Source of the DNA: Meloidogyne chitwoodi
Lineage: Eukaryota; Nematoda; Chromadorea; Rhabditida; Meloidogynidae
Assembly: GCA_015183035.1 (NCBI GenBank)
Contig: JACZZP010000001.1
Coordinates: forward strand, 1,984,001-2,048,000
DNA: 64,000 bases
Direction: 5' to 3'
The position numbers were made by a program, and so were the translations under genes. Under the pieces are notes generated by a model. That model saw nothing but the letters and a program-made list of their open reading frames with translations, did no database searches and had not been told where the DNA came from. Positions 19,631 to 61,479 of this stretch are shown piece after piece (position 1 is the first letter of the stretch; each line of letters starts with the position of its first letter).

Positions 19631-20940
19631 CATATTGATAGATGATAATTCTTTTTTCTCAACAACTATAATAAAACCTAGATTGTTGAGAAAGTTTATG
19701 GAAATGTTTTATGGAATAATATGGGATATATATAAAAAATATATTCCTTTTATCTTTTAAGAAAAAACAGGAAAAGTTGAGGAACAATAAGGGATGTTAA
19801 TGGGAAAAGGTTATTGGAGGACAAAACATCCCAGTTTATCTACATAGGTATACTTCTTTTGTTCTCTAACATTGTTTTAAATTTCGAATTTTTAATGTTT
19901 ATTTTTAGTTTCGATATAAAGACTAATATTCAACAGGATTTTGATTTATAGAGTCAATCTCTTCTTTTTCATTTATTATTTAGACTGGAAGCCATGGCAC
20001 GATAAAATTGCTTTTAGGCAATAAAAAGATTATTTATAAAGTGAATAAAGAAAAACGGTATGAGAGGATCTTTTCTTTTCTCAATTAAATAAAAGTTTTT
20101 ATTTTCTTTAAAACCATCTATTTTGAATTTTATTTAATTTTAAAAGATTTGGCAATAACATTGATTTTTTAGAGTCTATTAAATTGTACTTTTTTAAGAG
20201 ATAACCTTTTGCTTGTCTATATACATATAATAATTTGCTGTGCGTAATTGAGTTTTATTTTTATTAATTATTTAACCATTGAAGAAAAATAAATTAAATA
20301 AAAATTTAAATTATTATTTATGTTTATTTTTTGTTTTTATTAGTTTTGTTTATAACAAATCGAAAATGTAATTTATACTCTTTTTTGAATCCACTAAATG
20401 GTCTAATAATATTCAAATATTTGGAATTACAAAGGAGAAAATGTCAATATTTTTTTATTTATAATTACCTATTATAAAATTAATAAAATAAAAAGTAGCA
20501 AAATTTATTTTTAATAATTTAATTTTTTAAATATAAAAAAATATTATTTTTTAAAGTTAAAATAATTTTCTTGCGCACAACTTTTTAAAATTTATTAAAT
20601 AAAAATATTGGCGGCATTTTACTATTAAAAAAGAAATATTTTTTGTGTTTTGATTGAGTAAAAGTGCATTCTCGTGAATGAAAGGGCATTTACTTATTCC
20701 CTTTTTATCTCTGATTCACATGAAAATTAATTTATTATTTTTTGAAAATCCCGCCTTTATTTTTTTATTTAAATATAATATTTTACAACTATAATTAATT
20801 CATTTTACTTTTTTTTTTAATTTAAATAAAATAATTTATTTATTTAATAAATAAATAAATATTATTAAATTTATTTAAATTAGATAAAATTCAATTTAAA
20901 AAAAATATTAAAAAAAAGAAAATTAAGAAGAGACAATTTA

Positions 20941-23100
20941 ATGTCCTTAACTTTTCTTTTAATTTTTTTTCATTTTGGTTAGTTTTTATTTAAATATATT
21001 TAAATGTGACATTTTTAATTAATGTCTTCTTTTTATATAAAAATTCAGGTATTGTCATTGCAAGTAATCAAAATATAAAAATTCACTCAAATAGTGTAGC
21101 TATATTAGCATCTTGTCATTTAAATTTTCTAAAAGAAGGAACACTTGGGGATATTAATGAAAGTGGTATATTATTTTTAAAAAGATTATTTTTTATAGAA
21201 AATTAATAAACAAAATTATTATATTTTTTTTTTAATTTTTAGATATTGATCCCTACATTAAAATCCAAAAAACAATTTCATCCTGTCTTGAGAAGGTAAA
21301 AACTTTGATTTTATATTTAATTTTTTTAAAATATTTTTCTTAGAATCTTAAAAACATTGAAGAAATTAATAAATTAAAAATAAATTTTTACAACTTTATT
21401 GATAAAGAACTTGACAAAGGGGAATTTCAAAAATTAAAAATAAGTGAGAATAAAATAGAAATAATGTATTTTGGTTGGATTGTACAAATGCTTTATTATA
21501 CTATTGCTGATAAACTTCTTGAAAAATTATTAAAGTCTCATGATTTTGAAAGAGCAGTAGTACTTTATTCTACTTTAACTGTATATAATAATATATTAAT
21601 TAAATATATATACTTTAATTTTAGAAAATAAAAATTGCTATAAGTAGTTATAAAGATTTTCGAAAAAATCATTTAAATCGAATTATTGAAAATTTTGATA
21701 ATTTACTTGAAATACGAAATAAAACTATTTATGAACATTTTAAAAATTTAAAAAATGAATTGGAATCTAAATTAAAAGAATGTACAATTGATGTACATAA
21801 TATTGATTTTCAACAAAATTATTGGTGGTTAAAATCAGATACAAATCAAAAAAGAAGCGCTTTTGGTTTAATTTTTACACCAAGATCATGTAAACATTTT
21901 TTAAAAAATATTTAGGAATTTTTTGAATAATAAAAAATTAATAATGTTTTGTTAATTTAAAAAATGCCTTTTAATTTTTTAAGCAACAACATCAATTCAA
22001 ACACCACCATTATCACCAAATAAAATAAATAATACTGACGAAATTGATATGAATGAAATTAGATTATACGAAAAATTAAATTCTTTGCCAGTTGTTAAAC
22101 GAGTTATTTTATTAGTTAATGGTTTAGATAACAATAAAATGACAGAAAAAGGTTTTGCTAAGAAATTGAAAAATTTGTAAGATTTTTTAATATTTTTAAA
22201 TATATTAATACTTTTAAGGATTAAATCAATGCCAATCTCACATATTATCTCATCTACGGAAACTTTAGAAACTGCAAAACAAATTGGCTCTACATTTAAA
22301 AAAATAAATATTAAATATGATCAAAACCTTAATAAGGTTAATAAAATATAAATAAATACTAAAAAATTAATTTTATTTTAAATTTTCATAATTTAAGTAA
22401 TGCTAAACTAAAAAAATAAGTACTAAATCAAAAATTAATTTATATATTTAATTTAAGTATAAAAGTTTAAAACAAATTACTTTAATATATATAATAATGT
22501 ATTTTAGTTTATTTAATTAATTTAATAATTAAGATAAATGAAAATGAAGATAATATTAAATTGATAAGTAATTTATTAAATAATATACTATTAAAATATA
22601 ATAACGAAGAGAAAGATTTTAACAAAAAAAAAGATACATCTGATGAATTTTTAGAAAAAAATGACAAAAATAATATAGGTTTTATTTAAATTACAAAAAA
22701 TATTTTATTAAAATTTAATAAAATAAATCATTTGTTATATTATTTTTAATCTTTTCTTTTTTAAATATTTAATATATTTTTTTAATTTAGCTTATTTGGT
22801 GGTTATTACAAATAGTGATGTAATTGGTGTTATGCATGAATTAATTACTGGACAATGGGCTAATATTGAACCTGTAATTTTAAAATTAAAATATTTTATA
22901 AAATAATATTTATTATTAATTAAAATAAAAATATTTAGGGGTCAATTAGCAAATTTGTTGAATTTGAAGAATCTAATAAAAATGTTGAAAATGAAAAAGA
23001 AATAACGTTTAAAAACTTACGCCTTATTAGAAGCAATGATGTTAAACATATGGGTATTTATCGTTTACCCGAAAATCACTTACTACCTGGAGGACTTTAA
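20941..23100 (+). CDS. Secreted histidine-phosphatase-like pseudoenzyme, paralogue 1
   Basis: Ten exons (20941-20977, 21049-21165, 21243-21295, 21344-21580, 21625-21889, 21984-22176, 22219-22336, 22534-22678, 22791-22873, 22939-23100) join in frame to 469 residues. A signal peptide (MSLTFLLIFFHFGIVIA) starts it. A helical Cys domain follows (SNSVAILASCHLNF, then SSCLEK), then a YWW pair near residue 220. From about residue 275 the order of the histidine-phosphatase fold is recognisable: KRVILLVNG in place of the RHG strand, MTEKGFAKKLKNL like the usual LTExGxxQA helix, SHIISSTETLETA like SSPLxRAxQTA, and LVVITNSDVIGVMHELITG like the VVxHGxxI strand. The catalytic Arg-His, the second Arg and the second His are all absent, so it should not catalyse phosphoryl transfer. 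Its closest relative in the window is the gene at 36462-38975, sharing intron positions near the N-terminus. Role unknown; secretion is predicted. Confidence 0.78.
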
Positions 23101-23864
23101 AAAGAGAAATATTTGAAAATGAGGAAAAAGAATTTTTATTAAATGTTTTTTAAAATTATTATTTTTTTAAATATGTATATAATCTTTTAGTTAATTAGTC
23201 AATTTATTTTATTTTTCAAATAGTAGCTTTAATTTTTAATTTTAAAAGTATTATTTAGAATATCCATAAAATACTCAATTACTATTAATCAAAAAACCTG
23301 TTTCTAGTTTTTTTCTCTTACCTCTAAAAATTATTTTAAAAATTTTTCTTATATAAAAGAACCGTAGATATGTTTTTTTATAAAAATGTATAAATTATAC
23401 GACTAGAATTTTTGAAATTTTTTTAGTTAGATTACATAAATATTATAATATTATTATTAAATAGATACAAGATTAGATTATAATTTAGATACAAAACAAT
23501 AATATATTATATTTCATTTAAAATTTAAATTATTTAATTTTCTGATTGATAAAATTTTTTAGGTAATTATTATATGTGTCTTAAATTTATGTAATTAACT
23601 ATTTATTTATTAATATAAAATATTGCTAAGATTTTAAATTTATTTTTATTATTGTTTTTGGTAAAATAGAAAAAAACTTTTAATATTATTAAATAATTAA
23701 AAATAAATATATACATATATTTATATAAAGATTGTTTTTGGTGTAAAAAAGGCTTTAGAAATGGCTGAATATTGTGAGGAATTAAATTTTAAGTAGAAAA
23801 AGTGAAAAGAATTTTTTTATTAATTAAAGAAATTAAAAAATAATATTATTTTTTTCTCATTTAT
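23101..23864. other. Convergent intergenic spacer
   Basis: A/T-rich DNA between two genes that converge from opposite strands. Nothing else is supported. Confidence 0.6.
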
Positions 23865-26115
23865 TTACAAAATTGCACAACATCGACAAATACCCCTTCG
23901 AGCAGGTGGTGCCTTAAAATTAGAAAAGAATAATAATTTTTATTTTATTAAATAATTACTTGTGGTGGTGGTGTAGCAGGAGCAAAGTAAGCATGTACTT
24001 CCACATCTGGTCGACTTTGCTAAAATAAAGTTATTTATATTTTATAATATTATTTTTTTAATAAAAAAAGGATAATTTTATAAATTTTCATTTTGTGTTG
24101 ACTAAAAATTAAATTTTCATTTAATAAAAAACCTTAAATTTTTTAATTGCATCTTTAGTAATCATTTGACAATCATATAAATCAATTCTTTCCAAAACTT
24201 GTAACATTTTCATTGATTCAAGTGTATTATCTGTTATATTTGGACAATTATCTAATTCTAATACTTGTAATTTATCTTTATGAGAGGCTAAAATTTTAAA
24301 AATTATTTTTAAATTAAAATATAAAAATAACCACAAAGTTCAGCCAAACCAATATCAGTTAAATTTTCGCAATGAGAAAGTGAAAGACTTAATAAATTGG
24401 GACATCCATTATTTAAATTTGAAAGAGTAATATCTTTAAAATAAATTAATTAATTTAAAAAGAATATTAAATAATAACCAGTAATAAGTAAACATTCTTC
24501 CAAATCCATCCTTTCTAATTCATGACAATTTTTTGAAAGTTGAATAAATCCAGAATCTGTTAAATTTAAACAACCAGCCAATTCAATATCTCTATAAAAA
24601 ATAAATTTATTAATTTAATATGTTAAAAATATTAAATTGTTAACAAATTATTTTAATATTTTTAAATTATAGTAAATAAAAGAATATTTAATCTTTAAAA
24701 AATTAAAAAAATACTTAAGCCGAAGACATCCCTGAGATATTGAAATAAGAGAAAGGTCAGTAATTTCTTTGCAATTTGATAATGAAAGAAATTCAAGACT
24801 AGGAAAATATTTAGCAATATCATTAATTGTTTCATCTAATATATTCTTTAAAAATATATAAATTTCAATATATATTTTTTATTTAAATATTTACAGGGCA
24901 AGAATGTAGACTTAATCTTTTTAATTCTGCCATTCCAAATTTAGCAAAACAATTGGATGAAATCTTTAAAAATAATTTTAATTTAATTTTTAAAAATATT
25001 AAAAAAAACATTATCAAGTCCTTTACAAAAAAGTGTTCGTAAATTATTACAACTTTTAGCAATATAAAAAAGCCCCAAATCTGTAATTTGTTCACACCAA
25101 CTAATATTAAGTTCTTCCAGACGTTTACATCCCTCACTAAAATATTTTAATTAATTAAAAGTTACATATAATATTTATTTATTAAAAATAAATATTTTAA
25201 GATAAATAAAACCCAATTAAATATAAACTTATTTAAATATTTTTTTATTAAAAAAATTATTTCTTAATTATTTTTAAAAATAATTCCTAACATAAGAACA
25301 ACTAGGTATGTAACTATTATTATAAAACTCTAAAGAAAGGAAAAGTTTATACAAAACAAATAATTTTCAAATTTATTAATTACCCAATAAATTTTATGGC
25401 AACATCTGTTATTAATGTACAATTTTCTAAATCAATCATTACAATTTTATTACAATATCTTCCAATATATTCACATGTTCTGAAATTAAATAAATATTAA
25501 AATATATATTAACTACTTACGCGTCAGTAATTAATTTACATTTAGTTAGAGTTAATCTTTCAATATTTGGACATTTTGTAGTAAATGACCTCATTGCATT
25601 ATCTTGAACATTTTCACAACCTTTTAGTGAAAGAATTTTAAGAAAATTGCCACAACGTTTGGCTAAACTTTCAACAACAGATGTCTAATATTTAATTTTA
25701 TTCTTTTAATTTATTATATTTATATACTTTGACTTCTCGTTGAAATAAAAACAAATCAACATCCATCCAATTACTTCCATCCATCGATAATTTATTCCAG
25801 CTTCTACAGATTTGTGCACATCGGCAAAGTGAAGTGATATCCAAATAAGAGAAAACCCTTTAAAAAATAAAATTAATTTAAAGTATATTTAAAAAAATAT
25901 ATAACGTATGTCCCCTCTCCAAGTCAAAAATAGGTATCAAATATTCTACTAACAATAATATTTATATTTAACCGTAATATAAGTTCAGTAGGAAGCATTC
26001 GATTAATAAGTGCAGGGGGAACATGATGGTTGTGTTTTTGTTGTTGCTGAGAGGTTAAATAATTATGCCCGTTTTGTTGAGAAGTACCAGGAAGCATTGT
26101 TGTTATCAAATACAT
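23865..26115 (-). CDS. F-box/LRR protein of the FBXL2/FBXL20 family
   Basis: Substrate receptor of an SCF ubiquitin ligase. Twelve exons (26115-25973, 25857-25728, 25684-25521, 25479-25384, 25136-25010, 24963-24895, 24845-24715, 24591-24479, 24433-24332, 24287-24133, 24019-23960, 23912-23865) give 445 residues. The F-box (LPTELILRVFSYLDITSLCRC) starts near residue 40, and about eleven cysteine-containing leucine-rich repeats follow (for example LNISWCEQITD, MDLEECLLITD, LSLSHCENLTD, LELDNCPNITD). The C-terminus EVHAYFAPATPPP and CRCCAIL matches vertebrate FBXL2/FBXL20, including a terminal CAAX box for prenylation and membrane anchoring. The N-terminus before the F-box is a His/Gln-rich extension. 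The ATG at 26115 is directly preceded by an AG acceptor, so an upstream exon (see 30407-30487) may be spliced to it in phase 0. Confidence 0.93.
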
Positions 26116-26479
26116 CTTAAATATAAATTTAAAAAAATAAAATATAGATAAATAATTTATATAAATAAATATAAAAATAACAATTTGTTAAATCAATAAT
26201 TAAAATATTATGTAATAAATTAAAAAGAAAAATCAATTAAAATATTCTGATGAAATAAAATTAAATATTATATTAATATTTCCAAAAATGGATATATAAA
26301 TATGTAGTTGATATTTAAATATAAAGAATTATAAGTATTAGAGCTATAAATTTCAATCTTAAAAATTAAAATAAATAAAATCATTTTCTAGCAAAATAAC
26401 ATTTTAAGTATATTCTAGAAATAATTAAGATGTATTTAAAATAAAAAGAAAATAAAATTAAGAAGCGGTTCAGTTGAGA

Positions 26480-26691
26480 CAGCACGATTGAGTCAGGCAC
26501 GGTTGAGTCACCGTCTAAAATAGTTCACCCAAGTTTTTTCTAGATAAAAATACGAATGATAGCTCATTTGAAAGAGCTCTTCGAGCTAAGTCGAATAAGA
26601 CCAAAATGAACGAATTAGTAGGCTTCAAACGAAGTTAGGAGAAACGGTGACCCAATGTGATGACTCAACAGTGCCTGACTCAATCGTGCTG
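26480..26691. mobile_element. Foldback element B, 212 bp
   Basis: The left arm 26480-26514 and right arm 26644-26691 are inverted repeats (CAGCACGATTGAGTCAGGCA outermost) built from GATTGAGTCAGGCAC-like units; the right arm carries about 13 extra bases. Length and core (TTGAAAGAGCTCTTCGAGCT at about 26568) match element A at 18942-19152. No target duplication is evident. Confidence 0.8.
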
Positions 26692-26722
26692 ACGAGGTGT
26701 ACCATACAAGTTATGTAAGAAG

Positions 26723-26974
26723 TTAAAATAAAAAAGAAATTACCACCTCAGACTTTTGACTTTTATTTGATATTTGAACACCTCCTTTTTTCCTATTTTT
26801 GTTTAAAATCCTTCTTATTTTGCAAATTGCCTTTTTTGGCCAAAAAACAGTTGATTTAATTGTTGAAGAATCATCTACTAAATTCTCTAATCTCCAATCC
26901 CATAGAATTCCATCATTTTGTACTGAACAATCAAAATGAATTAATGGATCCATTCTATAAAAAGCACGTAACAT
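26723..26974 (-). CDS. Unassigned ORF, 83 residues
   Basis: An open frame whose composition is more protein-like than neighbouring A/T frames (DGILWDWRLENLVDD, then a basic segment KKAICKIRRILNKNRKK). I do not recognise it. It may be an isolated exon or an alternative 5' exon of the F-box gene, or simply chance. Confidence 0.25.
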   Translation of the reverse strand: MLRAFYRMDPLIHFDCSVQNDGILWDWRLENLVDDSSTIKSTVFWPKKAICKIRRILNKNRKKGGVQISNKSQKSEVVISFLF

Positions 26975-29900
26975 AATAAAATCTCCTTTTTATTTGAATA
27001 TTCCTCAAAATCTTTTGAATTACTTAAAAGTAATAGGTAAAGTAAAGTCGAAGAAAATTTTATTTTTAAAACGAGGCAACATTTGGGTGAATAATTTCTT
27101 GTAAAATAATATTATTTTATAAATTTGAAGAAAATAATAATTAAATATTAAATTTTTTTTGATATATTTTAAATTAAAATAACTGATTAATATCAATAAA
27201 AAAATTAGTTTTTATAGAAATTGAAGAATAAAAAAATACTAATAAAAAAATAAATAATATAGTAAATACTGACTATAAATTCTTGATTCCGCATGAGTGA
27301 TGAGACAACGCATAATATACCTATTATATTATATTTATTTACTATTTTACTTAATTCGCCTCAAAGCACTCATTCAGCATCGCTAAAAAAAAGTAAATAT
27401 GAGAAGTTATTGCTCAAGCAAATATTTGCAATTTGGATTGTTTTTTTAATGAATATTTTTTTAATTTAATAATAATTGAAAATAAATTTTAAAAAAATAA
27501 AATATTGAAAAATATTGTTGAAATTAAAAAACGTTAGTTTAGTGCTTAGAAAAGTTCATAAAGAGAAGAATACCTAAAATTTTTAAATATTTTCCATAAT
27601 TTCAAATATAATTTTATTTGATAGTTTAGTCAAAAAACAAAATAGAAACAACCAAAATGATATTTTGTTTTCTTAATGCATTAAGCAAAAATTATAAAAT
27701 TTCTGAAAGGTTTAAAAAAATATAGTTTTTGCCAATTTTATAAATAATTGCCAAATGACCTTACGAAGAAGAGGTCAACGAAAATGAAATGAATAAAATG
27801 GATATACATATATTTATTCTAATATATATATACATATATTATAGAGAGGATTGGTTAAGGCTAGAGACGACAAGTAACACAACAGGACACAACAAACAAT
27901 ATAAAAATATTATAAGTCATAAAAAAGCAAACCCTCAACCTCTTTTTTTATTTTTTCATTCAAAATTTAATGTGGTTATTGGTCAATGTCCGATATTTTG
28001 TTTGATATTTAAAGAAATTGTTTTGCACCTTTTTTGGGTGAATGAAGGGAATAAATCTTTAACTATCCGTACCTTTCATTTTTGATTAAAAATAAATATA
28101 ATTTAATTTTTTCAAATATAAAATAATAAATTGTCTACAAATCCATTAGTGTCCATTAATTTACAAAATCTTTGTTAAAAGCAAATTTCTAAATTATTCA
28201 CTTATTTATTAATTCAATGATTTTCACACGTTTATTAGCAAAACATTATAATTTTTTGAGAAAAATAAAAAAAATAGATTTTTAAATCTATTTATATGTA
28301 TTTGATTTTATACTAATAAATATATTTATTATTATGAAATTCAAAACTAAAAAAGAACACAAAATTAAAGAAAAAAGAATATATTTATAAAAAATAAATT
28401 TAATAATAATTTAATTTTTTTATTAAGAGTTGAATAAAAATTATTTTGATATCTTTTCTGAATTAAAAACCTCAAACATTTTTAAAAAATAAATGGAAGA
28501 GTAAAGAACTGTGTGACCCGAATCTTACACAATAAAAAAGCTTTAATATAAGGGAGGAGAATTAACAATGAATGCGCGAAGGACAATTAAGAAAAAGAGA
28601 AGGACAGAAATGGAATAAAAATTGAAAAGGATTTTTTAAACATTTTTAAACTAAAAACAGCTTTAATAAAACTAAAAAAAATTAAAATTTATATTTATTT
28701 TTATTGTTATTAAGGCCAAAAGTTATCAATGCATAAAATGGGTATAACAATTTAAATATTTTAGATACATAGCCTTAAATAGAATTATTTATTTAAATAA
28801 ATAATTTATTGTAAAAGAATGATTGCCTTCATTAATATAAAATAATGACAGATGTTTGTTTTATTTTATTTTAATTATTTGAAGGTTAAAGAAGAGAAAA
28901 GAGTATTTTTTAAATTTAATAGTGGTTAGTAGTATTTAAATATTTGTAAATTTATTTCTTAAAATTTATTGTTTTTGGCGCGAATTTTTGTTTAAAAAAA
29001 GGCTGATATATGGATAAATATAAATTTAAAAGAGAAAAAAAAGTAAAAAAAGAAATAAAAATGTTTAATTTTAATTAATTTCTAAATTAAATATTTTTAT
29101 TTGTCCTTAATAATATAATTATATATAAACAATTGAAATAATTTTCTTTAATGAGGATTTCTTTATGAGGTAATAATATAATGTTACATTATTAGTTTAG
29201 AAAATAAATTAATATGAGGAAAAAACTAGTTGGAAAATAATAATGAACCGGTTGGCATATTTTCTTTATTAATAATATTTTTATTACTATAAGAATAGGA
29301 ACTGGATATAAATAAATAAAATATATAATTTTATAATGAGGAATATTAGTTTGGCCCAAAACAATATTACAAAGAAAACTTAAATGGTTGAGACAGATGC
29401 GCAAAAATAGATAATAATAATAATAATAGTAATAATAATATAAATTTAACATAAAAATCAAAAATTTAATTTTAAAAAATATATAATGAAAAGCAAAATG
29501 ACAAAAAAATAAAACAATTAAACTAACCTTTCTCAATAATAAAATAGTTTTTTATAAATAAATTAGCTGTATTGTTGTTAAATATATTTAAAAATATTTT
29601 TTTATATAAATTAATAAATAAAAATAAAGAAAATTTAAAAAAGAAATTTGAAAATTTTAAAATAAAAATTATTTTTACTGCAAAAATAAAGGAAATAAAT
29701 AAATTAGAGTAAAAATGTTGACTGTTATTTTTTTAAATATATTATTATAACTAGGTAGTAGGCGGTGATGACTTTGATGAGGGAAGATGAAAAAAAAAGT
29801 TATTTAGGATGGCGAGAGATGGATGAGAGCCTATTTGACCATTTGATAGATTAACTTTAAAAATTGTGAAAGGAAGAGGTTAAAAATAAAATATAAATGA

Positions 29901-30406
29901 AAAATAAAATAAAAATAATTAATATTAAAATTAATTTTAAATATTATTCAATTAGATTATTATAATCTCTAGTCTAATTTTAAATATTTATTTTATTATA
30001 TATATTTTATTATATAATATATATATTCATAATTGTAATATACATATATTTATCATATTATTAGCGCAATACTTATTATTTAAAAAATGACCTGAATTCG
30101 TTAGTCAGATATTCTTAACAATTCACTTTACAACAATTATTGTATTATTTTTACATTTTTTAAACAAATTAGAAAATGATAATTTTAATAATATTTGAAA
30201 AAAGAATTATAAGCATCAGAATATTTAATTTTATCTCAAAATATACAAGTAAAAACTAAAATAATTTAATAAGAAGGTCAGATAATTATTAATATATAAA
30301 TTAAATAAATATAAAAATAAATTACAAATTATTTTAAATTTTAAAATAAAAATAATTAAAAACTTATATAAAAAAATTAATAAAAAATATATTAAATAAT
30401 TATTAC

Positions 30407-30487
30407 CTGATTATGTTTGGCCTGTACTCTTTTTCCACTAGGCATTGTTGAAGTAGTTGAAAATCCTGTTGTATCATAACTACTCAT
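30407..30487 (-). CDS. Candidate upstream exon of the F-box gene
   Basis: An 81-bp open exon bounded by an acceptor (TTTCAG, just before ATGAGTAGT) and a GT donor, encoding 27 residues (MSSYDTTGFSTTSTMPSGKR and onward). It is phase 0 at both ends and would join in frame to the F-box exon at 26115 across a 4.3-kb intron. The ATG could be a trans-spliced start. No cDNA evidence is available here. Confidence 0.45.
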
Positions 30488-30713
30488 CTGAAATAATTAT
30501 TTAAAATAAATATAAATTTTTGTCAATTTATTTAATAAATTTATTTTTTGATAATAAAATAAAAAAATTTATCAGAAATACATATTTCCCGAATTTATAA
30601 ATATATATTAATTAAATTGATATTTCAAAGAATAAATGTTATTATCAAAAATTGTTAAAAAATCCTTCAAAATAAAAAAAACAAAAATAAATAATATTTA
30701 TATAAAAATAAAC

Positions 30714-30992
30714 ATTCGCACGAACCGGTGCCACCGAAGTGCTTTTCCGTCCATTGCCTCCAATACCACCACCATCATTTCCCAATGGGCGCATTTCGCC
30801 AGCTTTTTGCCGTCGCTTTTTGCTGCTGCACCTTTTTGATTCCGATAGTAGTGAAGAAGGATGATAAGATGAAAAAGGTAAAGAGGAAGAAGCAATGGAT
30901 GTTGGGGAGGAAGAAGAGGTAGAGGCCGTTGGTAGTTGAAAAGCTGCCCTTGTTGTCGTAGCAGTCAATGAATATGGAGAAATAGAAGGTCG
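30714..30992 (-). CDS. Candidate Ser/Thr-rich upstream exon
   Basis: An open exon of locally higher GC with an acceptor at 30993-30995 and two possible phase-0 donors (30714 or 30726). It encodes a Ser/Thr/Pro-rich low-complexity segment with a basic patch (SSKKRRQKAG). It would splice in frame to the exon at 30407-30487, so it may be the disordered N-terminus of the F-box gene product or belong to a separate gene. No start codon is certain; a TTG or ATG further upstream (about 31046) would be needed. Confidence 0.4.
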
Positions 30993-31049
30993 CTGTAAAA
31001 AGTTAAAAAAAAGTCCGACTGTCAATAAGAGAGAAAATAAAATCAATGT

Positions 31050-31434
31050 GTTCTCGTCATTAGTAAGAGAAAAAAGGGAATTACTTTCTTGTTAGATAAG
31101 AAGAGGTGAAGAGAATGAGAGGAGGAAATGAGGATTGGAAATGACGAGATATTTTATTTATTATATAAAAATGAAAAAAACAAAAAGTACTAACTACTAT
31201 TATTTAGTACAAATATTCTTGAAGTATATATTATACATATAAGTAAATAAACATAATTAGTAATATATGTAATATTTGGATATATTTATTTATTTATAAA
31301 TTGGTTGCCTTGGAAGTTTTTTTTTAAATTTAATAATTTATTTTTAATTTAATATTCTCTTCTAAAATATATTTAAAAATTGGATTTCTAATCCACTTAA
31401 ATATTAACTCTTAAAAATAAATTAATTAATTGTT
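31050..31434. other. AT-rich spacer
   Basis: Nothing supported beyond A/T-rich sequence. Confidence 0.5.
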
Positions 31435-32506
31435 AGTTTACATTTTTACACTGCTTTTTTGTCTGTACAACTTCTTCATTTTCATCAATAAATTTTCGTT
31501 GTTTATTTGAAGAAATTAAACTTTTAAGTGAATTAGATGATGAAATAACATTTCTAACAGGCAATAATTCATCTTCATTTAAAGCAATATCATTTTCTAT
31601 ATTTTTATATTTATTTAATGGAAATTCTGATCGAACAGAATAATTTTTATTCTTCAACAAAACAATTTTCTCTTCATCTTCATATTTTATATTTTCTTCC
31701 TGATCAATATCAGCATCACAAAAAGTAGGATTATATTCATTTCCTGACTAAAAATTTTTATTATAAATATTAAGGTAGTAGTAATATTTGAGATAATTCT
31801 CTGTGATAATATCAAAATAATTAACTAATAATAAGAATTTTTTATTTAATAATTTTACATCTTTTATTATTAATTCTGATGCTGTTTTATTTGTTTTAGT
31901 AATTTCATCCAGTAATTGTCCATCGAAAGTATTATAATTAATATTACATGAACAACTAGTACAACTCTTATCATCTATGGAAGAATCTCTTAAAGGCTTA
32001 AAAACTGTCAAATAATATTGTAAAAAATTTAATAATAAAACTAAATACTAAGAAATATTAAACTGATAAATAATTAAAAATATATTAATTTCAAAGAATA
32101 AATTAAACCTTTTTTATGGCTGTAAAAACATCAATTTTTCGAGTATGTTGATAAAATTGACTTTCTATATAAATTTTCAATTATATTAGAATAATTTAGA
32201 CAATTTAACCTTGTTTTTCAGGTTTACATAAAAGAGTAGAAGAACCATATGATTCGTTTAAACTTGGAGTAGAAGAAGCTACTTGTAATGAAATTCTCTC
32301 ATTGGCTAGAATTTATTATTTTAAAAATTATTTTTCCAAAAAATCAAATATTTAAAAAACGAAAAGTAGAAAAAAATTTTACCCTTATCAGCTGAAGCAG
32401 TTCTTAAAGTTAAGCTTAGTCTTCGTCCAAGTTTTTGTTCACAACGACGTCCAATTTCATCATCTTTTTCATCAAAGGTTTCGCCTAGCAATAATGATTT
32501 AGACAT
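31435..32506 (-). CDS. Unrecognised protein, about 290 residues, probably nuclear or cytoplasmic
   Basis: The start at 32506 (MSKSLLLGETFDEKDDEIGR) leads into at least five exons: about 32506-32383, 32308-32212, 32168-32110, 32007-31830 and 31747-31435. Content is polar and Ser/Asp/Glu/Lys-rich with no signal peptide or membrane helix. Recognisable pieces are LGRRLSLTLRTASADKG near the start, a Cys cluster (CTSCSC) in the middle and a basic end (TKKQCKNVN). Most junctions keep frame, but the junction between the third and fourth exons does not resolve to a clean GT-AG pair in frame, so the model is incomplete there. I do not recognise the family. It lies just upstream of the candidate 5' exons of the F-box gene on the same strand. 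Confidence 0.5.
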
Positions 32507-33930
32507 TTAAATAAAAAGAAGACAAAAATTAATAAATTGTAATTATAAATTAAAATGGAATATAAAACAAAACTAAAATAATTAATTAATTAAAATATTA
32601 AAAAACAGATAAAAATTTAAAAAGAAGTTGAGAGGTACATCTTAATTTAAAAAAATAAATAAAACGTCATTTTAATTTAATTAAAGAAAATTTGGAGATA
32701 AAAGTCAATTTAATAAGATTATTTAAATATATGTATGTCTATTAAAACTTTCTATAAAAAATTAATTATTTATAAAATTAAACATTAAATGTTGTTGGAA
32801 TTAAAAAAAATATTAAAATGTTGAACAACTCTAAAATAAATATAATTAAAAACAAATATAAATATTTAAATATTATTTTTTAGCAAATAAGTAAAAATAA
32901 AAATATATGTAGTTTAATTTTGGAATATCAGCTGATTCTACTGTCAGCTTTTTAGTAAAAAATAGTAACAAGAGTTATAAACATATGTAGTAAAGAGTAT
33001 TGGGACAGATGACTGAAAAATAAAAAAAAAGGCGAGAGTCTAGGCCTTTGTGTAAATGTTAGAGAAAATTAAAGAGAATAATACTAAATAATAATATTGA
33101 TGTTTTTAGATAAATTGAACAAAATTTGCAGACAAAATTTGCGGATTTTAAGGAATTATTAAAAAGCAATTATTTATATGTAACAATTAATACAAAAAAT
33201 TTAAAAAGTTGATTTATAAAAAATATAATTATAATGAAAAGTTTAAACAAATGCCTTATTTTTGTACTTAATATTATTAATTAATTTATAAAATATTTTT
33301 TTGGCTTAAAATAATATTTTTGAATTAAAAAAATAATTATTTCCAAACCTTGAAATTTTAGTTTTTAGCATATATTTATTTTTAAAAAAGCTATGAGGAT
33401 AAAATGCAAAAAAAACAGAGGAACAAAATGAAAATGACTGCCCTGCGGGCGACAAAACTACTACCAGAACAATCTTTCAAAAATGAAGAGAAAAAATAGC
33501 ATATGAAGAAGAGATTGACAGTGACAAGGACCGCATGCCTGTCACAATGGATTGACATTCGGCTGCAAAAAAAAATAATTTAAGGATCAATTTTTATATC
33601 AATCACCAAATATGTAATATGAGAATAATAATAAGAACGATAAAGTGAAAAAATAAAATATTTTAAAATATTTCGAATATTAAATTGTCCTTTAAATATT
33701 ACGGAATTTATGTAAATTTAAATTTTTAAAAATGTTGCTTCTAATTTCTGACTATATGTTAGGTTCGTAGAATAACAGTAAAGCTAGCGACAGCGCTTTA
33801 TCATAAAAGTAGATAGTAACAATGGTAGCGAAGGATTGGATTTCGGTCACTGGTCTTGGTGCTGCTGTCAGGGGACAGGGACTAAGCCAGGTCTTAGTAT
33901 GTGCTTGCTTGACTAACTGTTAGACTGGCT
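32507..33930. other. Intergenic region with a GC-richer island
   Basis: A/T-rich spacer, with islands of ordinary base composition at about 33420-33570 and from 33760 into the phosphatase promoter. The first island contains a small GCCCTGCGGGC hairpin and no long ORF. A 33-codon ORF at 33822-33923 (MVAKDWISVTGLGAA and onward) lies upstream of the phosphatase but has no support as a gene. Confidence 0.4.
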
Positions 33931-33935
33931 TTTAT

Positions 33936-33963
33936 ACTATATAAGCCTGACGGCTTATATAGT
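33936..33963. promoter_or_regulatory. Perfect 12-bp hairpin upstream of the phosphatase gene
   Basis: ACTATATAAGCC and GGCTTATATAGT are perfect inverted repeats around a TGAC loop. Each arm contains a TATATAAG-like box, so it may be a duplicated TATA element, a dyad-symmetric regulator site, or chance. Confidence 0.5.
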
Positions 33964-33992
33964 AACACTTCACCAGTACACATATCCAACAC

Positions 33993-34000
33993 TATATAAA
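33993..34000 (+). promoter_or_regulatory. TATA box of the PP1-like gene
   Basis: TATATAAA lies 89 bp before the ATG at 34089, a sensible spacing for a core promoter with a short 5' leader. Confidence 0.5.
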
Positions 34001-34088
34001 CGAAGTTTTAAGATACAAGTTAAACTGTCATCATCATAACAACGTTAGCTCAAAGAAGTTCTTCAAAACAATATCTACACTTCGTTCA

Positions 34089-35370
34089 ATGTCAAGGAGA
34101 GCCCGTATCGATATCAGCCGTTTCTTCGACGACTTCTTCGCTGGTGTGCTGGATGGCCGCATAGAGAACAAGATCAGCAGGAAGGTAAAATAATATTCTT
34201 TTAATTTTTAAATAAATTATTATTTCATTCTTTTTTTTTCAGGATATCCGCGAGCTCTTGTATACTGTTCGGCGTATATTCTTATCACAGCCTATCTTCC
34301 TTCGTCTGGAGACGCCTATGGTTAATTTTTTCTTTTAATTAATTAATTTATTTATTAAAAATATTATTTGTATAGGTTATTTGCGGTGATCTGCATGGCC
34401 AACTCAATGATGTTATGCGAATCTTCGATACTGAGGGTTTTCCACATGTGCGAAATTATTTGTTTCTCGGAGACTATATAGATCGTGGCCAGCAGTCCGT
34501 CGAATTGATACTCTTTATGTTTGCGTGCAAGGCAAGCATATTTTACCATTAATTAATTTTTTAAAGTAATTTTTATTTTTACAGATTCGTTATCCAAAGA
34601 ACTTCTTCATGCTTCGAGGCAATCATGAGACATCATCAGTTAACAAGCACTACGGTTTCTATAAGAATGTGATGAACAAATATCGTAGCGAAGCACTCTA
34701 CGAACTCTTTCAAAGGGTTTTCGACTGTATGCCGCTTTGTGCTCTCATCTCCGATAGAATCTTATGCATGCACGGTGGATTGAGTCCTCGGCTTCTGGAA
34801 GCGAAATCGCTAGATGTTCTTGATAACATCAGTCGTCCATTAGCTGTGAGTTGAATTTTTATAAAAATATAGATTTTCACCTTTTCCTTTTTTAGGACTC
34901 TAAAATATCCGAGAATGGGAATCAGTTGGCCGTTGACTTACTCTGGGCGGACCCAGATATCAATGTTCAACTCTTCAGTTCCAACCGTCGGGGCATTGGT
35001 CGCACATTTGGTCAAGAAGTCATCGATCGTGTTCGTCAGCGTTTTGGCATTGATCTCATAATTCGCGCACATCAGGTAAATAATTGTCCACTTTTTTTTA
35101 ATTTTATAAATTTTGAGGTCGTTCTGGACGGGCATGAATTCTTCAATGACGATCCGAGTTCGGGATTGGTCACATTGTTCTCAGCACCTCATTATTGTGG
35201 CCAGTAAGTTTACAATTAATTTTGACAAATTTTTTCCAAAATTTCTTTCATTTAGATATGACAACTCTGGAGCAATTATGCGTGTTGATAAGAATATGGG
35301 CGTCTCCTTCAAAGTGTTCAAACCTCAACTTCAAAACAACTCGTCTCGACATTCTAATAGGACAGAATAA
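34089..35370 (+). CDS. PP1-like serine/threonine protein phosphatase
   Basis: Metal-dependent Ser/Thr phosphatase of the PPP family, nearest to PP1. Seven exons (34089-34184, 34243-34320, 34376-34531, 34585-34845, 34896-35075, 35118-35203, 35256-35370) give 323 residues, close to the usual PP1 length of about 330. The metal and catalytic motifs are intact: GDLHGQ at 62-67, GDYIDRG at 90-96, RGNHE at 121-125, CMHGGLSP and RAHQVV. The C-terminal signature is SAPHYCGQYDN where PP1 normally has SAPNYCGEFDN, so it is a divergent member like the many germline PP1 copies of nematodes. Intron 3 uses a GC donor (AAG|GCAAGC...ACAG). The exons have far more balanced base and codon use than neighbouring genes. 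The start is the first ATG in frame. Function in sperm or germline is inference from family habit. Confidence 0.93.
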
Positions 35371-36461
35371 TATGGAGAGAAGTACTATATGGAAGTAGGA
35401 AGAATATAATATATATATAATGATATAAAATTCATTTTTTGTTGTAATTGTTCGTATATATATGTAAATAAATATATTTGTCTGTTTAGTATGAAAAAAA
35501 ATTTTGTTGATAAGTAAGAATGTTTGAAAAATTTAAAAATAAGATATGTATTTATTAAAGAGTTAAAAACGAATTTTGGACGGACAATGTCCAAATAATA
35601 AATTTGGGGAAAACTTTTAGTTAAATAATATAATATGTTTATTTATCCCCAAGAATTGTTTCCCTGAATTTTTATCAGAATTAATTTAAAATTTAGAGTG
35701 CATATAAGTATAATAAAATTTGTATGATGAAACTCTTAAAGTTTATTTTTCCCATAATAAAAAAAAAAGTTCCTTAAATTAAAAATATAAAGTGCAAAAT
35801 TTTAAATCTCAAACCTTTTTGTTTATTATAAAGAAATAAAAAATTAAATTTTTTTGAGAATTGCCAATAAATTAAAATAAACAGACATGACGAAATCTAC
35901 TATTTCATTGCAATAAATAAATATACACAAATAATTTTTTCTTTAAAAAATATGTTTATTAATTTTATGAGAATGAAAAGTTTTAATAATAAATTATGTA
36001 AAATGCCTGGCCATTTGTGTTTCTAATTTTCTGAATATTTTAATTTTAATAAATAATAAATTATTCTTTATTAAAATTTTTCTTTAATTTCAATTAAAGT
36101 TTGGAATTTAATTTCTTTTAATACATATTTCTTTTAATATTTCTTTTAATTTTTTTAAATTAAATTTTTAGCAAAATAAATAAAATTAAAAGTTTATTAG
36201 CACTATTTATTTATTTTGTAATAAAATTTATTTAGAAATCTTATTTTTAAAGATTTTGTCTTTGTAAATAAATATTACAAAATAAAAATAGTTTGTAAGC
36301 TGTCTGTCTGTTATTTTTATTTAAATTTATTTATATTCACTTCCGACTGATATTATTATTATTACCTTAAATATTATTATTTATTAACAAGTAAAATACT
36401 TTTCTTTTTCATTTTTAAATTATTTTTAAATTAATTTTTAAATTTTATTTTTAAAATTAAA
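35371..36461. other. AT-rich intergenic spacer
   Basis: Nothing supported; simple A/T-rich DNA. Confidence 0.6.
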
Positions 36462-38975
36462 ATGAATATTATTACATTTCTAATTTTGGCATTTTTTATT
36501 TTTATTGGTTAGATTTATAAAATATTTTAATATTAAATAACAATTAATTTTAGGATTAACATATGCCAAAATAACTTCAAATGGAATTGCTGCATTAACT
36601 TATTGTCAAGAAAATTTTATTCTTCAAGGCACTTTATATCAAGAAAAAAGTATATATTATTTATTTAAAAAAAATTAATATTTTTATTTAATTTTTATAG
36701 CTATCCTTGAATGTCTGAAGAATTTCAAAGTATGCATTTTTAAATTAAAAAAAAAAAAATTTAATTTAAAAGTTGATATAAAATAAAATTTATGTTCAAA
36801 TTAATATTTTAATATTAATAATTCTATTCTTTAAAAATTTAATTTTTTAGTCTCTTACATCTAAAAATCTTCAAGATGATTTAAAAATATTTGCGGAAAT
36901 ATTTAATAAAATCTTAAACGAATTAAAAGGAAATTTAGATATTTTAAATAAAAATAAAATATCTTCACCACTTTATAATTGGATATTAAAATCATTTCAT
37001 TATTTAATTGGACAATTATTTTTAGAAAAATTTTCAAAATGGAGTGGTGATTCTGACAGGCAATATATTTATGAAAGAATTAAAGTATTTATTATTATTA
37101 TTTAATTTTTCTTAAATAATCTAAAATTAATAAATTCTCTTATAAAAATACTGAAAATTAATTTATTTTATTCTTAAATTATTATTTTTTCTTCAGGGAT
37201 ACAAAATAGATTTAAAAAGATATAAAGCTTTTCAAAAATATTTAAAAGAAACATCAGAAAATTTGGATGATTTGCTTTATTTAAAATTAGGCAATAAAGA
37301 TTATAAAAAAATTTCTGAGTTAAAATCATTTATTAAAAATAAAATAATAGATGACAAATTAGATGATAAAAATGGTGGTCCAAATGCTGAATTATTCTTT
37401 TGGTGGATTAGACCTAATAATAGAGAAGAATTATTAGCTGCTTCTCAATCAAGACAATGTAAAAATATTTTTATAATAAATATATATATTTAAAAAAAAT
37501 TAAAACAGCTATAACAAATGATCCTTCTTTACTTACTAAAAGTAAATCAGAAGAAGAAAAAAGATTATCTAATCCAATTCCAATTATTTCAAAATCACCA
37601 TCTTCAAGAAGTTCTAAATCATCAATTTGGATTAATGAAATTAGTAAAACAAGGCCTTCATTTACACAAAATTATTTAAATAATTCAAAAATATATAATG
37701 GAGAGACAACACCTAGTAGATTATCTTTTGAGGAAGTAAAAGAATCTTCAGAAATAATAAATAATAATAATAATTTTGGAATAAGAAAATGGTCACCTAA
37801 AGTTAGAAATGTTATTTATTTAGTTAATAGTGAAATAAAAGAAGAAGAAAAACAAAAACAAAAACAAAATACTAAACAATCAAAACAAAATAAATATTTA
37901 ACAGAAACAAAAAAAGATAAAATAAAAAAATTAAATAAAATGTAATTAAATAAAATATATTTTATTGGATTATATATTATTTACTAAATAAAATTAATTT
38001 TCCTTATAGTTTAAATTACCTATATTTAAATTTATTTTTTTAAAGTTTTCGTTCTGTACCTATTACAAATTTATTTTCATCACCAGAAGATCAATCTATT
38101 GAAGTAGCAATTGGCTTAAATATTTTAAAAACTTTAAAAGTTAATTATGAACCTGGTTTTTACAAGGTTATTTATAATAAAATAATTAAATAATAATTAT
38201 TTTAATAGTTTATTAAAGGAAAATCTCCATTATATTCTAATTGTGAAACAATTAAACAAAATAATAAAGGACAAATTAATTGTGATTATTTTAATGAACG
38301 AAATAATGAGGGAAATGATTGTTATAATATTTTAAATCCAAAAAAGGTAATTAATTAAATTAATTTTAAAAAATAATTAATTTTATTATTTTATTATAGG
38401 AAATTAATGAAAAATATTTTACTGAAAGAATTGAAAAAGTTATTAATTGTGTTTTAAATTATTGTTTAAATAAAAGTAAAATTCAAGATAAATCTAATGG
38501 ATTATTACGAAAAGTTTATAAAAATTTAAAAAAAATATTTGGTTCTGATGATTTAAAGTGGTGGATTGGAGAAGATAAAGCAGGTTATTTATTTATTTTT
38601 AATAATTTTATAAGTATTCTGTTATTTTATCGGTTTTGATTATAAATTTTAATTAAAATAATTATTTTATTTAGAACATATTGTAATTGTGGCAAATAGT
38701 GAAGTAATTGGTATTATTCATAAATTAATAACAGATCAATGGATTGATGTTGAACCTGTATTTAAATTACTAAATATTAATAATTATTTTTTTATTTATT
38801 TATTTAGTTTTCAATAACCAAATTTATTGAATTTGAAACAAATGAAGCTAGCACATCTGGACCTTTTTATAAAAAATTTAAAATAATTCAAGAAAGTAAT
38901 ATTAAACATTTGGGTCCAATTAGAGAAGAATTAAATGTAATAAACAATTCAAATAATATTCGATGGGGAATTTAA
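36462..38975 (+). CDS. Secreted histidine-phosphatase-like pseudoenzyme, paralogue 2
   Basis: Eleven exons (36462-36507, 36554-36649, 36701-36729, 36851-37084, 37197-37458, 37509-37941, 38046-38166, 38209-38346, 38400-38583, 38675-38757, 38808-38975) join in frame to 597 residues. A signal peptide (MNIITFLILAFFIFIGLTYA) precedes a Cys-containing helical domain (SNGIAALTYCQENF, ILECLK) and a FFWW pair. Exon 6 inserts about 140 Ser/Lys/Asn/Gln-rich residues. The phosphatase-like part reads RNVIYLVNSE near residue 320 instead of RHGE, YLTETKKDKIKKL, FSSPEDQSIEVAIGL, and IVIVANSEVIGIIHKLIT near 518, so the nucleophile His, both Arg and the second His are lost. The C-terminal block (DQWIDVEP, TKFIEFE, NIKHLG) matches paralogue 1 (GQWANIEP, SKFVEFE, DVKHMG) almost residue for residue. 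The product is predicted to be exported; what it binds is unknown. Confidence 0.8.
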
Positions 38976-40584: not shown

Positions 40585-43500
40585 TTAAAAAGTTAAACTA
40601 CAAAGTTGTTTAAATTCTTCCTTTTCTGTTTTGTCCAATTCTTCATTAAATTCATTTTGATCATCAAATTCTTTTTCTTAAATTTTTTTAAAATTAATAT
40701 TTATTAATTAAAATAATAATATTTTAATTTTAATTAATTAATAAGAGAATAATTTAATTTTATTTAATTATTTATTAATTTCTAACCTTCTATAAAACGT
40801 TCACAAATATCCTTCTTTTTTTCATTTAAAACATTTTCAAGTTTTTTTAAACATTCAATTGCTTTAAAATTGTTATAATAGTATTGGCTCTCATTATTTT
40901 CTTCTTTACTGCTTGCTTCAATAATTTTTTCATAAAATTGATCAATTCTTTGTTCCGATTCAAATTTATTGTTTTTTCCTTCATTACATTTATTTACTTC
41001 ATTAACACAAGAAATATCCTCAATTAATAATTTAATATTTTTAATTAATTCTAAAGCATTGTCCTTTTCTATATTTTTACACCACCACCAGTTAATTGAA
41101 CTTAAATCCAAAAATTTATAAATTCCACAAACATTATTAATATTTAAACAATTTTGTTGTTGATTACTATTTTCTTTTTCATTTTTTAATTGTTCTTTGC
41201 CATAATTTTTAAAATTTTCATTAGTAAAACCAATTTGTTCAATATCACGTTTCATTCGATGCCATTGTGCTCCATTTCGATTATTATTTCCTCCAGTAAA
41301 TGGATGGTGAGAAAATCCATTAAATATTTTTGTATGAATTCTTACTGACCCATCAGGACGAAATTCATGTTTAATACTGAACAGGGAAGGACCTTTATGG
41401 GGAAAAGGGCCATTAAAATGATTCCATTGTGATGAATGTTGTCCTTGTTGATTATTTTGTTGATTTTGATTGCCATTTTGAGATTGATGTTGAGGAATAT
41501 TATTTCTTCCTTGTCCGCCCAAATGTGGATTATTTTGATTGTTAGAATGATTTTGTGAGTTTGAAGAAATATTCGTTTCATTTGGAGATTTGTTATGTTT
41601 TGGAATATTTTTCAAAGCAAAGGGAATAATTGCCTTTGATTTTATTTGTTCTTCTTGTTCATTATTCTAAATATAAATTAATTTTAAAATATTAAAATCT
41701 TCAATATATTTCTACCAAAAATATAATATAAATATATACCCATTACTTTATATTTAATTTATTTTGGTAATAAAAAGAGGAATAATCTATGCCTATTTAT
41801 TAATTAATTAGGTTATATTAAATATTAATTTTATTAATATTTTTTACTTTAATTGGTTTCTTTTGATTATTTAAATTTTCTGGAGTTGATTGTAATGCCT
41901 CCTTTATTTCCTCTTTTAATAAAGGTTTTTTATTAGAATTTTTTATTTTATTTTTATTTCTTCGCCTTTTCTTTTGTTTACGTTTTTGAGAAGGTTTACC
42001 TCCTCTTCTTTTTTTATTTTTATTTATTTTTTTATTATTTTTCTTTTTATTTTTTGGTTTATTTAAAACTTTATTTAATAATTTTTTATTTAAATGTTTT
42101 TTATTTCTTTTATTTAATTTTTTTGGATTTATTTTATTTTCTTTTTGTTTTTGTAAAGGTGGTAGTTTTATTTCATTTTTTATTTCTTTTTGATTATTTA
42201 ATAATAAAACTTTTTCTTTATTATTATTTTTATTTTCTAATTTATTAATTCTTTCTTTTATTGACAATGGTTGTTTTATTTTATTTTCTTTAATTGGTAA
42301 TTCTTTATTATTATTTATTTTTTCAATATTTTTATTTTCAATGGATGATTTATTATTATTATTAAATATTTGTTCATTTAATTTAAAAATATTCTCTTCT
42401 TCTTCTTTTTCTTTTTTTGGATTAATTTCTTCTAATTTTTGTTCTTTCAATAAAGGAATTTCTACAGATTTTTTAACATTATTAATTGTTTGATTTTTTC
42501 TTTCATTTTCCAAAATTGGTATTTTATTTATTTTTTCAGTTTCTTCTCTTTTTGAATTATTTTCATTATTTTCTTTATCATTTTTTATTTTTATTTCTTT
42601 ACTTTTTGATGTATTATTTGTTGATTTATCAGTTTTAATTTCATGAGAAAAATTGACTGTAACTTGTCTACTTTTATTTATTTTTATTGAAAATCTTGAA
42701 CGAGTTCTTAAACGTTTAGGATATTCTTCTTCTTCTTCTTCTTCTTCTTCTTCTTCAATTTTTGGTAATTTTATTTGTTCTTTATAAGGAATAATTGCTT
42801 TAGAATAATCATAAATATTTTCTTCTAATTTTTTATCATTTTCTTTTAAAGAATATTTTTCTTCATTTTCTCCTAAATAATTTTCTCTTTCATTTATTTC
42901 ATTTAATATATTTTCTGGTATTTCAATATTCCAATCATTTCCCTAAAAATAAAAATATATTATTATTATTATTTTTCTTACCAATTTTTTTGCTTCTTTT
43001 CCCAAATTAATTGAATAATTCAAAATACATTGTGGTTCCATTTTTTCAAATAATTTTTTTTCCAAATTTTCCATTTCATCGTTACCATTTACAATTTCTT
43101 GTATTATTTCATTATCAAAATGTTGGCAATTTATTGGAGGTTTCATTTCAATGCCTAATTGATTTATTGCTCTTTCCCAAATTATTTTAGAAAATTCTAT
43201 AATTTTTAAAATTGCCTCATTTTTATTATTTTCTGGCATTTGAATTTCTTTTTTCTTAAAATTAAAAAAATAATTTAAAAAAATCCTTTTATTTTACCTC
43301 TTTTTCTTTAAATTCCTCTTCTGATTTTTCTTCATCAATTTGGCATTTATCCATCATTTTTTCCATAATTTCTTTTCTGTTAGCAAATTGTGGTTCTTCC
43401 ATATGTTTTGGATCAAAAACTTGTTTTTCAATATTTTTTAATTTTTCTGTTGATTCACAAATAAAATTAGCTTCATTTTCTAATTTATTTTTTATTTGTT

Positions 43501-46253: not shown

Positions 46254-46511
46254 AATTTATTTTAATTTTTTGATTAATTATTTGCTCAAATTTTGGTTTT
46301 TTCTATACTAATTATTTAAATTTAGGTATTTTTTTAATCATTTTTTCTAAAGCCCATAATTTAGCCCATGTTAATTAATTAAACTTAGAGTTAAAGTCCA
46401 GTATTTTTAAAAATTCTAAGAATATTAAATAAATATATTTAAATCTCAATAAGAATTATTTTTTAATTTAGACTATTTTCTCTAAAAAAAACTCTTTTTA
46501 CTAATTATTTT

Positions 46512-60611: not shown

Positions 60612-60663
60612 GTTTCTATAATGGAATGAGAAAAAAGTTTAAAAATAGGCAGTCGCGGCGAGT

Positions 60664-61479
60664 CGGCCTCGCGACTAATCGGCCTCGCGACTAATCGGCC
60701 TCGCGACTAATCGGCCTCGCGACTAATCGGCCTCGCGACTAATCGGCCTCGCGACTAATCGGCCTCGCGACTAATCGGCCTCGCGACTAATCGGCCTCGC
60801 GACTAATCGGCCTCGCGACTAATCGGCCTCGCGACTAATCGGCCTCGCGACTAATCGGCCTCGCGACTAATCGGCCTCGCGACTAATCGGCCTCGCGACT
60901 AATCGGCCTCGCGACTAATCGGCCTCGCGACTAATCGGCCTCGCGACTAATCGGCCTCGCGACTAATCGGCCTCGCGACTAATCGGCCTCGCGACTAATC
61001 GGCCTCGCGACTAATCGGCCTCGCGACTAATCGGCCTCGCGACTAATCGGCCTCGCGACTAATCGGCCTCGCGACTAATCGGCCTCGCGACTAATCGGCC
61101 TCGCGACTAATCGGCCTCGCGACTAATCGGCCTCGCGACTAATCGGCCTCGCGACTAATCGGCCTCGCGACTAATCGGCCTCGCGACTAATCGGCCTCGC
61201 GACTAATCGGCCTCGCGACTAATCGGCCTCGCGACTAATCGGCCTCGCGACTAATCGGCCTCGCGACTAATCGGCCTCGCGACTAATCGGCCTCGCGACT
61301 AATCGGCCTCGCGACTAATCGGCCTCGCGACTAATCGGCCTCGCGACTAATCGGCCTCGCGACTAATCGGCCTCGCGACTAATCGGCCTCGCGACTAATC
61401 GGCCTCGCGACTAATCGGCCTCGCGACTAATCGGCCTCGCGACTAATCGGCCTCGCGACTAATCGGCCTCGCGACTAAT
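60664..61479. repeat. 16-bp tandem array, 51 copies
   Basis: CGGCCTCGCGACTAAT repeated about 51 times with almost no variation, inside the right arm of the MULE. The left arm has only one or two degenerate copies, so the array expanded recently in one arm, or was partly collapsed or extended by assembly. Confidence 0.95.

Follow-up and report, generated by a model that had tools for sequence, protein, structure and literature searches.

The TULA proteins (also UBASH3 or Sts) belong to branch 1 of the histidine phosphatase (HP) superfamily and are intracellular. Their C-terminal-most region is described as mediating dimerisation (PMC10253181). Section 10.1 of the same 2023 review reports several roundworm TULA-like genes with a dissimilar N-terminal part and incompletely conserved key histidines; the review allows gene-prediction failure as a cause of these anomalies, and the section names no Meloidogyne genes (PMC10253181). 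Here we describe two genes of the nematode Meloidogyne chitwoodi, g1 and g2, which lie in a window of 64,000 nucleotides (C1:1984001-2048000) of a 47.48 Mb assembly of 30 contigs, all of which was searched. We lean towards the reading that both are intact, probably secreted pseudo-HPs, derived from an active-type HP and now binding through the surface of the domain.

Pseudophosphatases of the PTP/DUSP type have a fold unrelated to that of the HPs and belong to a Cys-based chemistry; STYX, MK-STYX and PTPRU are described as having phosphatase domains that are catalytically dead and retained for regulatory or binding functions. Family PF00328 is branch 2 of the HP superfamily, not the branch in which g1 and g2 are placed. 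Described nematode members of the superfamily include the secreted or likely secreted acid phosphatase HAP of Haemonchus (PMC9356432), PF00328 proteins among the excretory-secretory products of Nippostrongylus (PMC9453252), and pharynx transcripts of Anisakis assigned to the superfamily at large (PMC5763927). The relevant passages of these three papers contain no description of the proteins as catalytically dead. Likewise, no secreted nematode pseudo-HP was found in the passages returned from the open-licence literature for nematode or Meloidogyne combined with histidine phosphatase, phosphoglycerate mutase, pseudophosphatase or pseudoenzyme.

Gene models and ancestry of the C-terminal domain

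A first-pass annotation, made from the letters alone, had placed two + strand genes at the coordinates below, and gene models with GT..AG introns give uninterrupted proteins exactly there.

20941..23100, + strand: g1, 10 exons, 469 codons (amino acids), GT..AG introns, uninterrupted frame; relatives P0001-P0003
20941-20977, 21049-21165, 21243-21295, 21344-21580, 21625-21889, 21984-22176, 22219-22336, 22534-22678, 22791-22873, 22939-23100, + strand: exons of g1
36462..38975, + strand: g2, 11 exons, 597 codons (amino acids), GT..AG introns, uninterrupted frame; relatives P0004 and P0005
36462-36507, 36554-36649, 36701-36729, 36851-37084, 37197-37458, 37509-37941, 38046-38166, 38209-38346, 38400-38583, 38675-38757, 38808-38975, + strand: exons of g2

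The frames stay open across 10 and 11 exons in DNA of 17-19% G+C. Stops make up about 10% of codons in shuffled coding sequences, and open frames of this kind would arise by chance with a probability of about 1e-21 (g1) and 1e-29 (g2). G+C at codon positions 1, 2 and 3 is 0.34/0.23/0.13 in g1 and 0.30/0.28/0.07 in g2, with about 0.08 in the introns. Because the chance of an open frame is tiny and G+C varies with codon position, g1 and g2 look like intact, real genes. Database searches (5.8 billion proteins, about 8,000 candidates scored per search) returned relatives of the dead proteins from Meloidogyne only: P0001 (M. graminicola), P0002 (M. hapla) and P0003 (M. enterolobii) for g1, and P0004 (M. 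floridensis) and P0005 (M. javanica) for g2. P0003 was retrieved with g1 and not with g2.

Both genes have the same layout, an apparent signal peptide followed by a helical Cys domain and then the pseudo-HP domain, and blastp finds homology at both ends, one stretch at 31% over 254 columns (E 3e-15) and one at 39% over 69 columns (E 4e-15). The introns of g1 have phases 1,1,0,0,1,2,0,1,0 and those of g2 1,1,0,0,1,2,0,0,1,0, the same order with one additional phase-0 intron, in agreement with the annotated sharing of the first phases. Exons 2 and 3 of both genes each contain a recurring Cys. Judged by the similarity of the ends, the shared order of phases, these cysteines and a common WW pair (see below), g1 and g2 are an old duplication.

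The C-terminal domain gave no Pfam match above cut-off in either gene, and a sequence search of the PDB with g1 gave nothing significant. When the genome was searched with g1, the hits other than g1 itself were a single g2 exon and a single place on contig C7 (E 0.0019) that adjoins a His_Phos_1 match; with g2 as query, the search likewise reached no further than an exon of g1 and C7 (E 0.032). The gene at this place, the C7 gene, is intact and encodes a histidine phosphatase of 221 amino acids with a single domain. It matches the structures of CobC, UBASH3A and ecdysteroid-phosphate phosphatase, and blastp aligns it with each of the seven members of the dead family (E 2.7e-10 to 9e-5, in a small set). 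With hhalign, a profile of five dead domains matched three intact HP domains at E 1.3e-16. Repeated with controls, the comparison scored 138.7 (E 2.2e-20), whereas the highest score among 60 column shuffles was 19.3 and a reversed profile reached 12.6. Each half of the dead domain matches intact HP alone (E 1.9e-9 and 2.8e-12), and the intact genes so matched themselves pass the Pfam cut-off.

Intron positions were mapped on a protein alignment built without intron information. A phase-2 intron at column 75 and a phase-1 intron at column 262 coincide in all five genes compared, namely g1, g2, the C7 gene and two tandem genes of contig C25 (C25A and C25B). At column 135, g1, g2 and the C7 gene share a phase-0 intron; at column 289 there is one common to g1, g2, C25A and C25B that C7 does not have. 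The extra phase-0 intron of g2, at column 184, is no more than five columns away from introns in C25A (179) and C25B (181), in a gapped region. Since profile, intron and structure-prediction evidence agree, the alpha/beta HP fold is supported, as is descent from branch 1 of the superfamily. The HP-like order of motifs, from which the first-pass annotation had proposed this fold, is present; neither a structure lacking the HP core nor an unrelated family emerged from the structure prediction and profile searches it suggested, the first structure model being too poor to judge.

Catalytic residues, orthologues and the C-terminal block

The active site was compared by aligning the seven dead gene models (g1, g2 and the five relatives) against the intact C7 gene. 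The main replacements in the window are as follows.

22118..22123, + strand: g1 Asn282-Gly283, replacing the catalytic Arg-His of the RH motif
22811..22813, + strand: g1 Asn396, replacing the second catalytic His
37826..37831, + strand: g2 Asn-Ser, replacing the catalytic Arg-His
38695..38697, + strand: g2 Asn522, replacing the second catalytic His

The Arg and His of the RH motif have become Asn and Gly or Ser in all five sequences that cover the site, two of the seven models being without the region. The second phosphate-binding Arg (SPxxR) is Gln in four of seven sequences, Ser in one, Lys in one and deleted in g1. The second catalytic His is Asn in five and Asp in one of the six sequences covering it (seven examined). 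Thus all four positions are replaced or deleted in g1, g2 and their orthologues, in agreement with the annotated loss of every catalytic residue. The annotation had also read VNG/VNS as standing for RHG in the first motif; the replacement of the catalytic pair stands, but the register was one residue off, since in an ungapped alignment VRH corresponds to VNG/VNS, with R to N and H to G or S. With the catalytic residues lost and the HP fold predicted in an orthologue, g1 and g2 are putative pseudoenzymes.

An unrooted tree was made of 10 HP domains; P0003, which is without the C-terminus, was left out. The six dead domains fall together on one side of a branch with support of 100/100, and within them g1 groups with the M. 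graminicola and M. hapla proteins and g2 with those of M. floridensis and M. javanica. The loss is common to a single old lineage of Meloidogyne. On the simplest reading, it would predate the duplication into g1 and g2, which in turn would predate the split from those Meloidogyne species.

Two of the orthologue models call for comment. P0005 is chimeric: its front, about 195 residues, matches P0006 and P0007, which represent an unrelated family, and only the later part belongs. The over-long end of the M. graminicola model reads TCGGGVAGA, nine residues that are readable on the + strand near 23960. This match, absent from the tblastn listing, hints at conserved gene order next to g1.

The last part of the dead domain comprises the former second-His strand and the last strands.

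22791..23100, + strand: g1 C-terminal block (by orthologue identity)
38675..38975, + strand: g2 C-terminal block (by orthologue identity)

Residues 389-455 of g1 are 75% identical to P0001 and 52% to P0002, and residues 515-581 of g2 are 69% identical to P0004 and 70% to P0005. The block, already annotated as conserved, is covered by four orthologue pairs. In three of them (g1-P0001, g2-P0004 and g2-P0005) it is the best-kept part; in the fourth, g1-P0002, it ties with the N-terminal domain at 52% each. P0003 is without the block. Together with the intact frames and the orthologues in other species, this conservation lends indirect support to the annotation's proposal of selection on a non-catalytic role.

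Secretion, expression and possible function

Signal peptides were called by hydropathy only (a 19-mer with a Kyte-Doolittle mean >1.4). As annotated, g1 and g2 each have a single such 19-mer, at the N-terminus, with no further stretch over the cut-off, and both proteins are probably secreted. The domain that follows is located in two exons of each gene.

21344..21889, + strand: g1 exons 4-5, which encode the core of the helical N-terminal domain, with the WW pair close to the end (structure prediction of orthologue P0002)
36851..37458, + strand: g2 exons 4-5, corresponding domain, WW pair near its end (gene model)

Residues ~1-187 of P0002 are predicted to be all-helical, with blocks at a predicted local distance difference test (pLDDT) score of 57-92. 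The WW pair, correctly annotated as common to g1 and g2, lies close to the end of exon 5 and is found also in P0003 and P0004; P0002 does not have it, and P0001 is without that stretch. Over this domain g1 is 52-62% identical to its three relatives, and over exon 5 it is 72% identical to P0001 in aligned columns.

The same genome encodes active-looking relatives. The tandem pair on C25, C25A (625 amino acids) and C25B (632 amino acids, one intron with a GC donor), has a hydrophobic N-terminus, a Cys in each of exons 2 and 3, a long middle region and then an HP domain over the Pfam cut-off which keeps all of R, H, R and H. The intron phases of C25B (1,1,0,0,1,2,0,1,0) are identical to those of g1, and C25A has one more at the end; the first five phases, 1,1,0,0,1, are identical in all four genes, and the first six are shared too. 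Because sequence similarity is undetectable between the N-terminal domains of the dead and active pairs, their common descent is argued from intron phases and Cys placement, which make a shared origin likely. Two further HP genes have frames starting at the HP motif, one on C7 and one on C1 near 2.81 Mb, and C9 has one more His_Phos_1 place; since the genome was searched exon by exon, these counts are lower bounds. The "local family" of the annotation is therefore right as to the relatedness of g1 and g2, but they are not isolated, being a dead branch of a wider group that includes the tandem pair elsewhere in the genome. Upstream of C25A (L032 1-3500, minus strand), a 15-base unit that can be read as ETLES or RHLSQ is repeated in a long array.

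In genes known to encode dorsal-gland effectors in M. incognita, the Mel-DOG motif peaks at -350 to -150 (PMC8158474). Copies occur before both genes.

20662..20688, - strand: two Mel-DOG motifs (TGCMCTT; motif from PMC8158474), with starts at -279 and -259 from the g1 start codon
35790..35796, - strand: one Mel-DOG motif, at -672 from the g2 start codon

The two copies before g1 are 20 bases apart and both within the favoured interval. Two or more copies per 1 kb have a chance of 0.0035 under a first-order Markov model, and 0.9% of 500-base windows in 101 kb of sequence, the g1 site included, contain two or more. The pair hints at gland expression and makes g1 a fair candidate for the dorsal gland.

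In the history that we favour, a cytosolic-type HP gene would have gained a signal peptide and the helical N-terminal domain; this secreted gene would then have duplicated, and one branch would have lost catalysis prior to the g1/g2 duplication. We infer a binding role. The surface of the dead domain may make the contact, chiefly at the conserved C-terminal block, which lies near the TULA dimerisation region; either an active secreted relative or a host protein might be bound. Since neither phosphate-holding arginine remains, trapping of a phospho-ligand seems less likely than phosphate-independent surface binding. A bolder version, which we hold as doubtful, makes g1 and g2 two old copies serving as gland-secreted, non-catalytic binding effectors, derived from the still-encoded active secreted HPs; dead and active forms might then be partners at the plant interface.

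Several observations weigh against the main reading. A PDB profile search with the dead domain returned no HP among its matches, Pfam recorded PF00300 for P0003 alone (E 0.1), and P0002 has a sub-cut-off match to a different family, DUF5064 (E 8e-4, residues 295-348). The first structure model, of P0002, was poor in the HP half (pLDDT mostly 25-58) and Foldseek found nothing with it; the second, of an orthologue, recovered the HP core, but at a mean pLDDT of 56.5 and a predicted template modelling score of 0.44. P0003 has no 19-mer over the hydropathy cut-off, and the N-terminal domains of g1/g2 and C25A/B align by hhalign at E 0.2, within the range of 30 shuffles. As to expression, g2 is preceded by just one Mel-DOG copy, C25A and C25B have none within 1.5 kb upstream, and the copies at g1 and g2 are on the minus strand, a matter of orientation on which the relevant text of PMC8158474 has no words. 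Finally, part of the HP domain may be eroding, because its first half is less conserved than the C-terminal block and its middle, of variable length among the genes, is shorter in g1.

The last point would suit a relic, in which the helical Cys domain does the work and the C-terminal half drifts, and the N-terminal identities among the g1 relatives fit this too. We consider it rather unlikely, since conservation in most pairs is highest in the C-terminal block, albeit with a tie in g1-P0002 and no such block in P0003, and the HP core is still recovered in structure prediction. Decay of g1 and g2 as pseudogenes would account for their fast divergence and the shorter HP middle of g1, yet it is hardly credible in view of the open frames at such low G+C, the codon-position composition and the orthologues of each copy in other species. 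Nor is it at all probable that catalysis persists through other residues at a migrated active site: Asn at the former Arg position in all five sequences covering it means that the pocket is not random, but the four canonical positions are all changed, including both phosphate-binding Arg and both His.

A more serious contender, to which we allow somewhat less than an even chance, is a secreted protein used within the worm (in the cuticle, eggshell, reproductive tract or lumen) and not as an effector. A signal peptide by itself is no proof of delivery to the plant, and the C25 relatives are without Mel-DOG; against this stand the Mel-DOG pair in the favoured interval before g1 and the restriction of the relatives to Meloidogyne in the database searches. 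A role as prozyme-like regulators, the dead proteins pairing with active-looking secreted paralogues and setting their activity, has in its favour that such relatives are present in the same genome, that TULA proteins dimerise via the C-terminal region (PMC10253181), and that a dead trypanosome paralogue is described as activating its partner (PMC5201418). The differing promoter motifs of the dead and active pairs and their large divergence (26-39% identity in the main aligned stretches of g1/g2 and the C25 proteins) nevertheless make it improbable.

Neighbouring sequence and known systems

Tail to tail with g1, at 24124-25684 (-), are several mutually similar frames that are leucine-rich-repeat-like by eye, and upstream of g2, at 34570-35207 (+), are PP1-like Ser/Thr phosphatase frames with a Metallophos match in 34896-35207. 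Long reading frames at 12629-18768 (-) and 40782-47596 (-) have C-poor coding strands, the + strand G+C skew falling to -0.52. Eight frames tested from these two regions gave no Pfam match over cut-off (one frame Suf, E 0.003), and the searches made gave no link of the regions to each other or to g1/g2. At 60663-61479, in a G+C-rich island (0.51 over 60001-62000), there are 51 perfect copies of a 16-base unit; a tandem repeat of this unit length, 16 nucleotides, is reported at chromosome ends in M. hapla (PMC12643312). An exact repeat of at least 201 bases occurs at 56642-56842 and 63800-64000, 7,158 bases apart, and reaches the window end.

Within the genome, the closest system is the C25 pair, which is like g1 and g2 in layout, in the first six intron phases and in intron columns 75, 262 and 289, and differs in its complete R, H, R, H and in an N-terminal sequence without detectable likeness. 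A single species thus has both dead and active-looking paralogues built alike, and each dead copy has orthologues in congeners, which is the comparison that pseudoenzyme work needs. Unlike the TULA proteins, whose N-terminal part is UBA-SH3, g1 and g2 have a helical Cys domain behind an apparent signal peptide (no UBA or SH3 Pfam match was found in g1, g2, C25A or C25B), and all their catalytic residues are lost. The roundworm TULA-like genes of the review (PMC10253181) likewise have a dissimilar N-terminus and lost His; here genomic DNA, introns and orthologues show the loss to be real, and so the question which that review leaves, whether the missing histidines are real or an annotation fault, is answered for these Meloidogyne genes. 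STYX, MK-STYX and PTPRU share with g1 and g2 a dead phosphatase domain, but are not secreted nematode proteins. The Haemonchus, Nippostrongylus and Anisakis proteins are described as nematode members of the same superfamily at large, secreted or likely so; PF00328, the family of the Nippostrongylus proteins, is the other branch. Because secreted nematode HPs and roundworm His anomalies are already in print, we place g1 and g2 not apart from them: they are a secreted, dead branch of a known superfamily.

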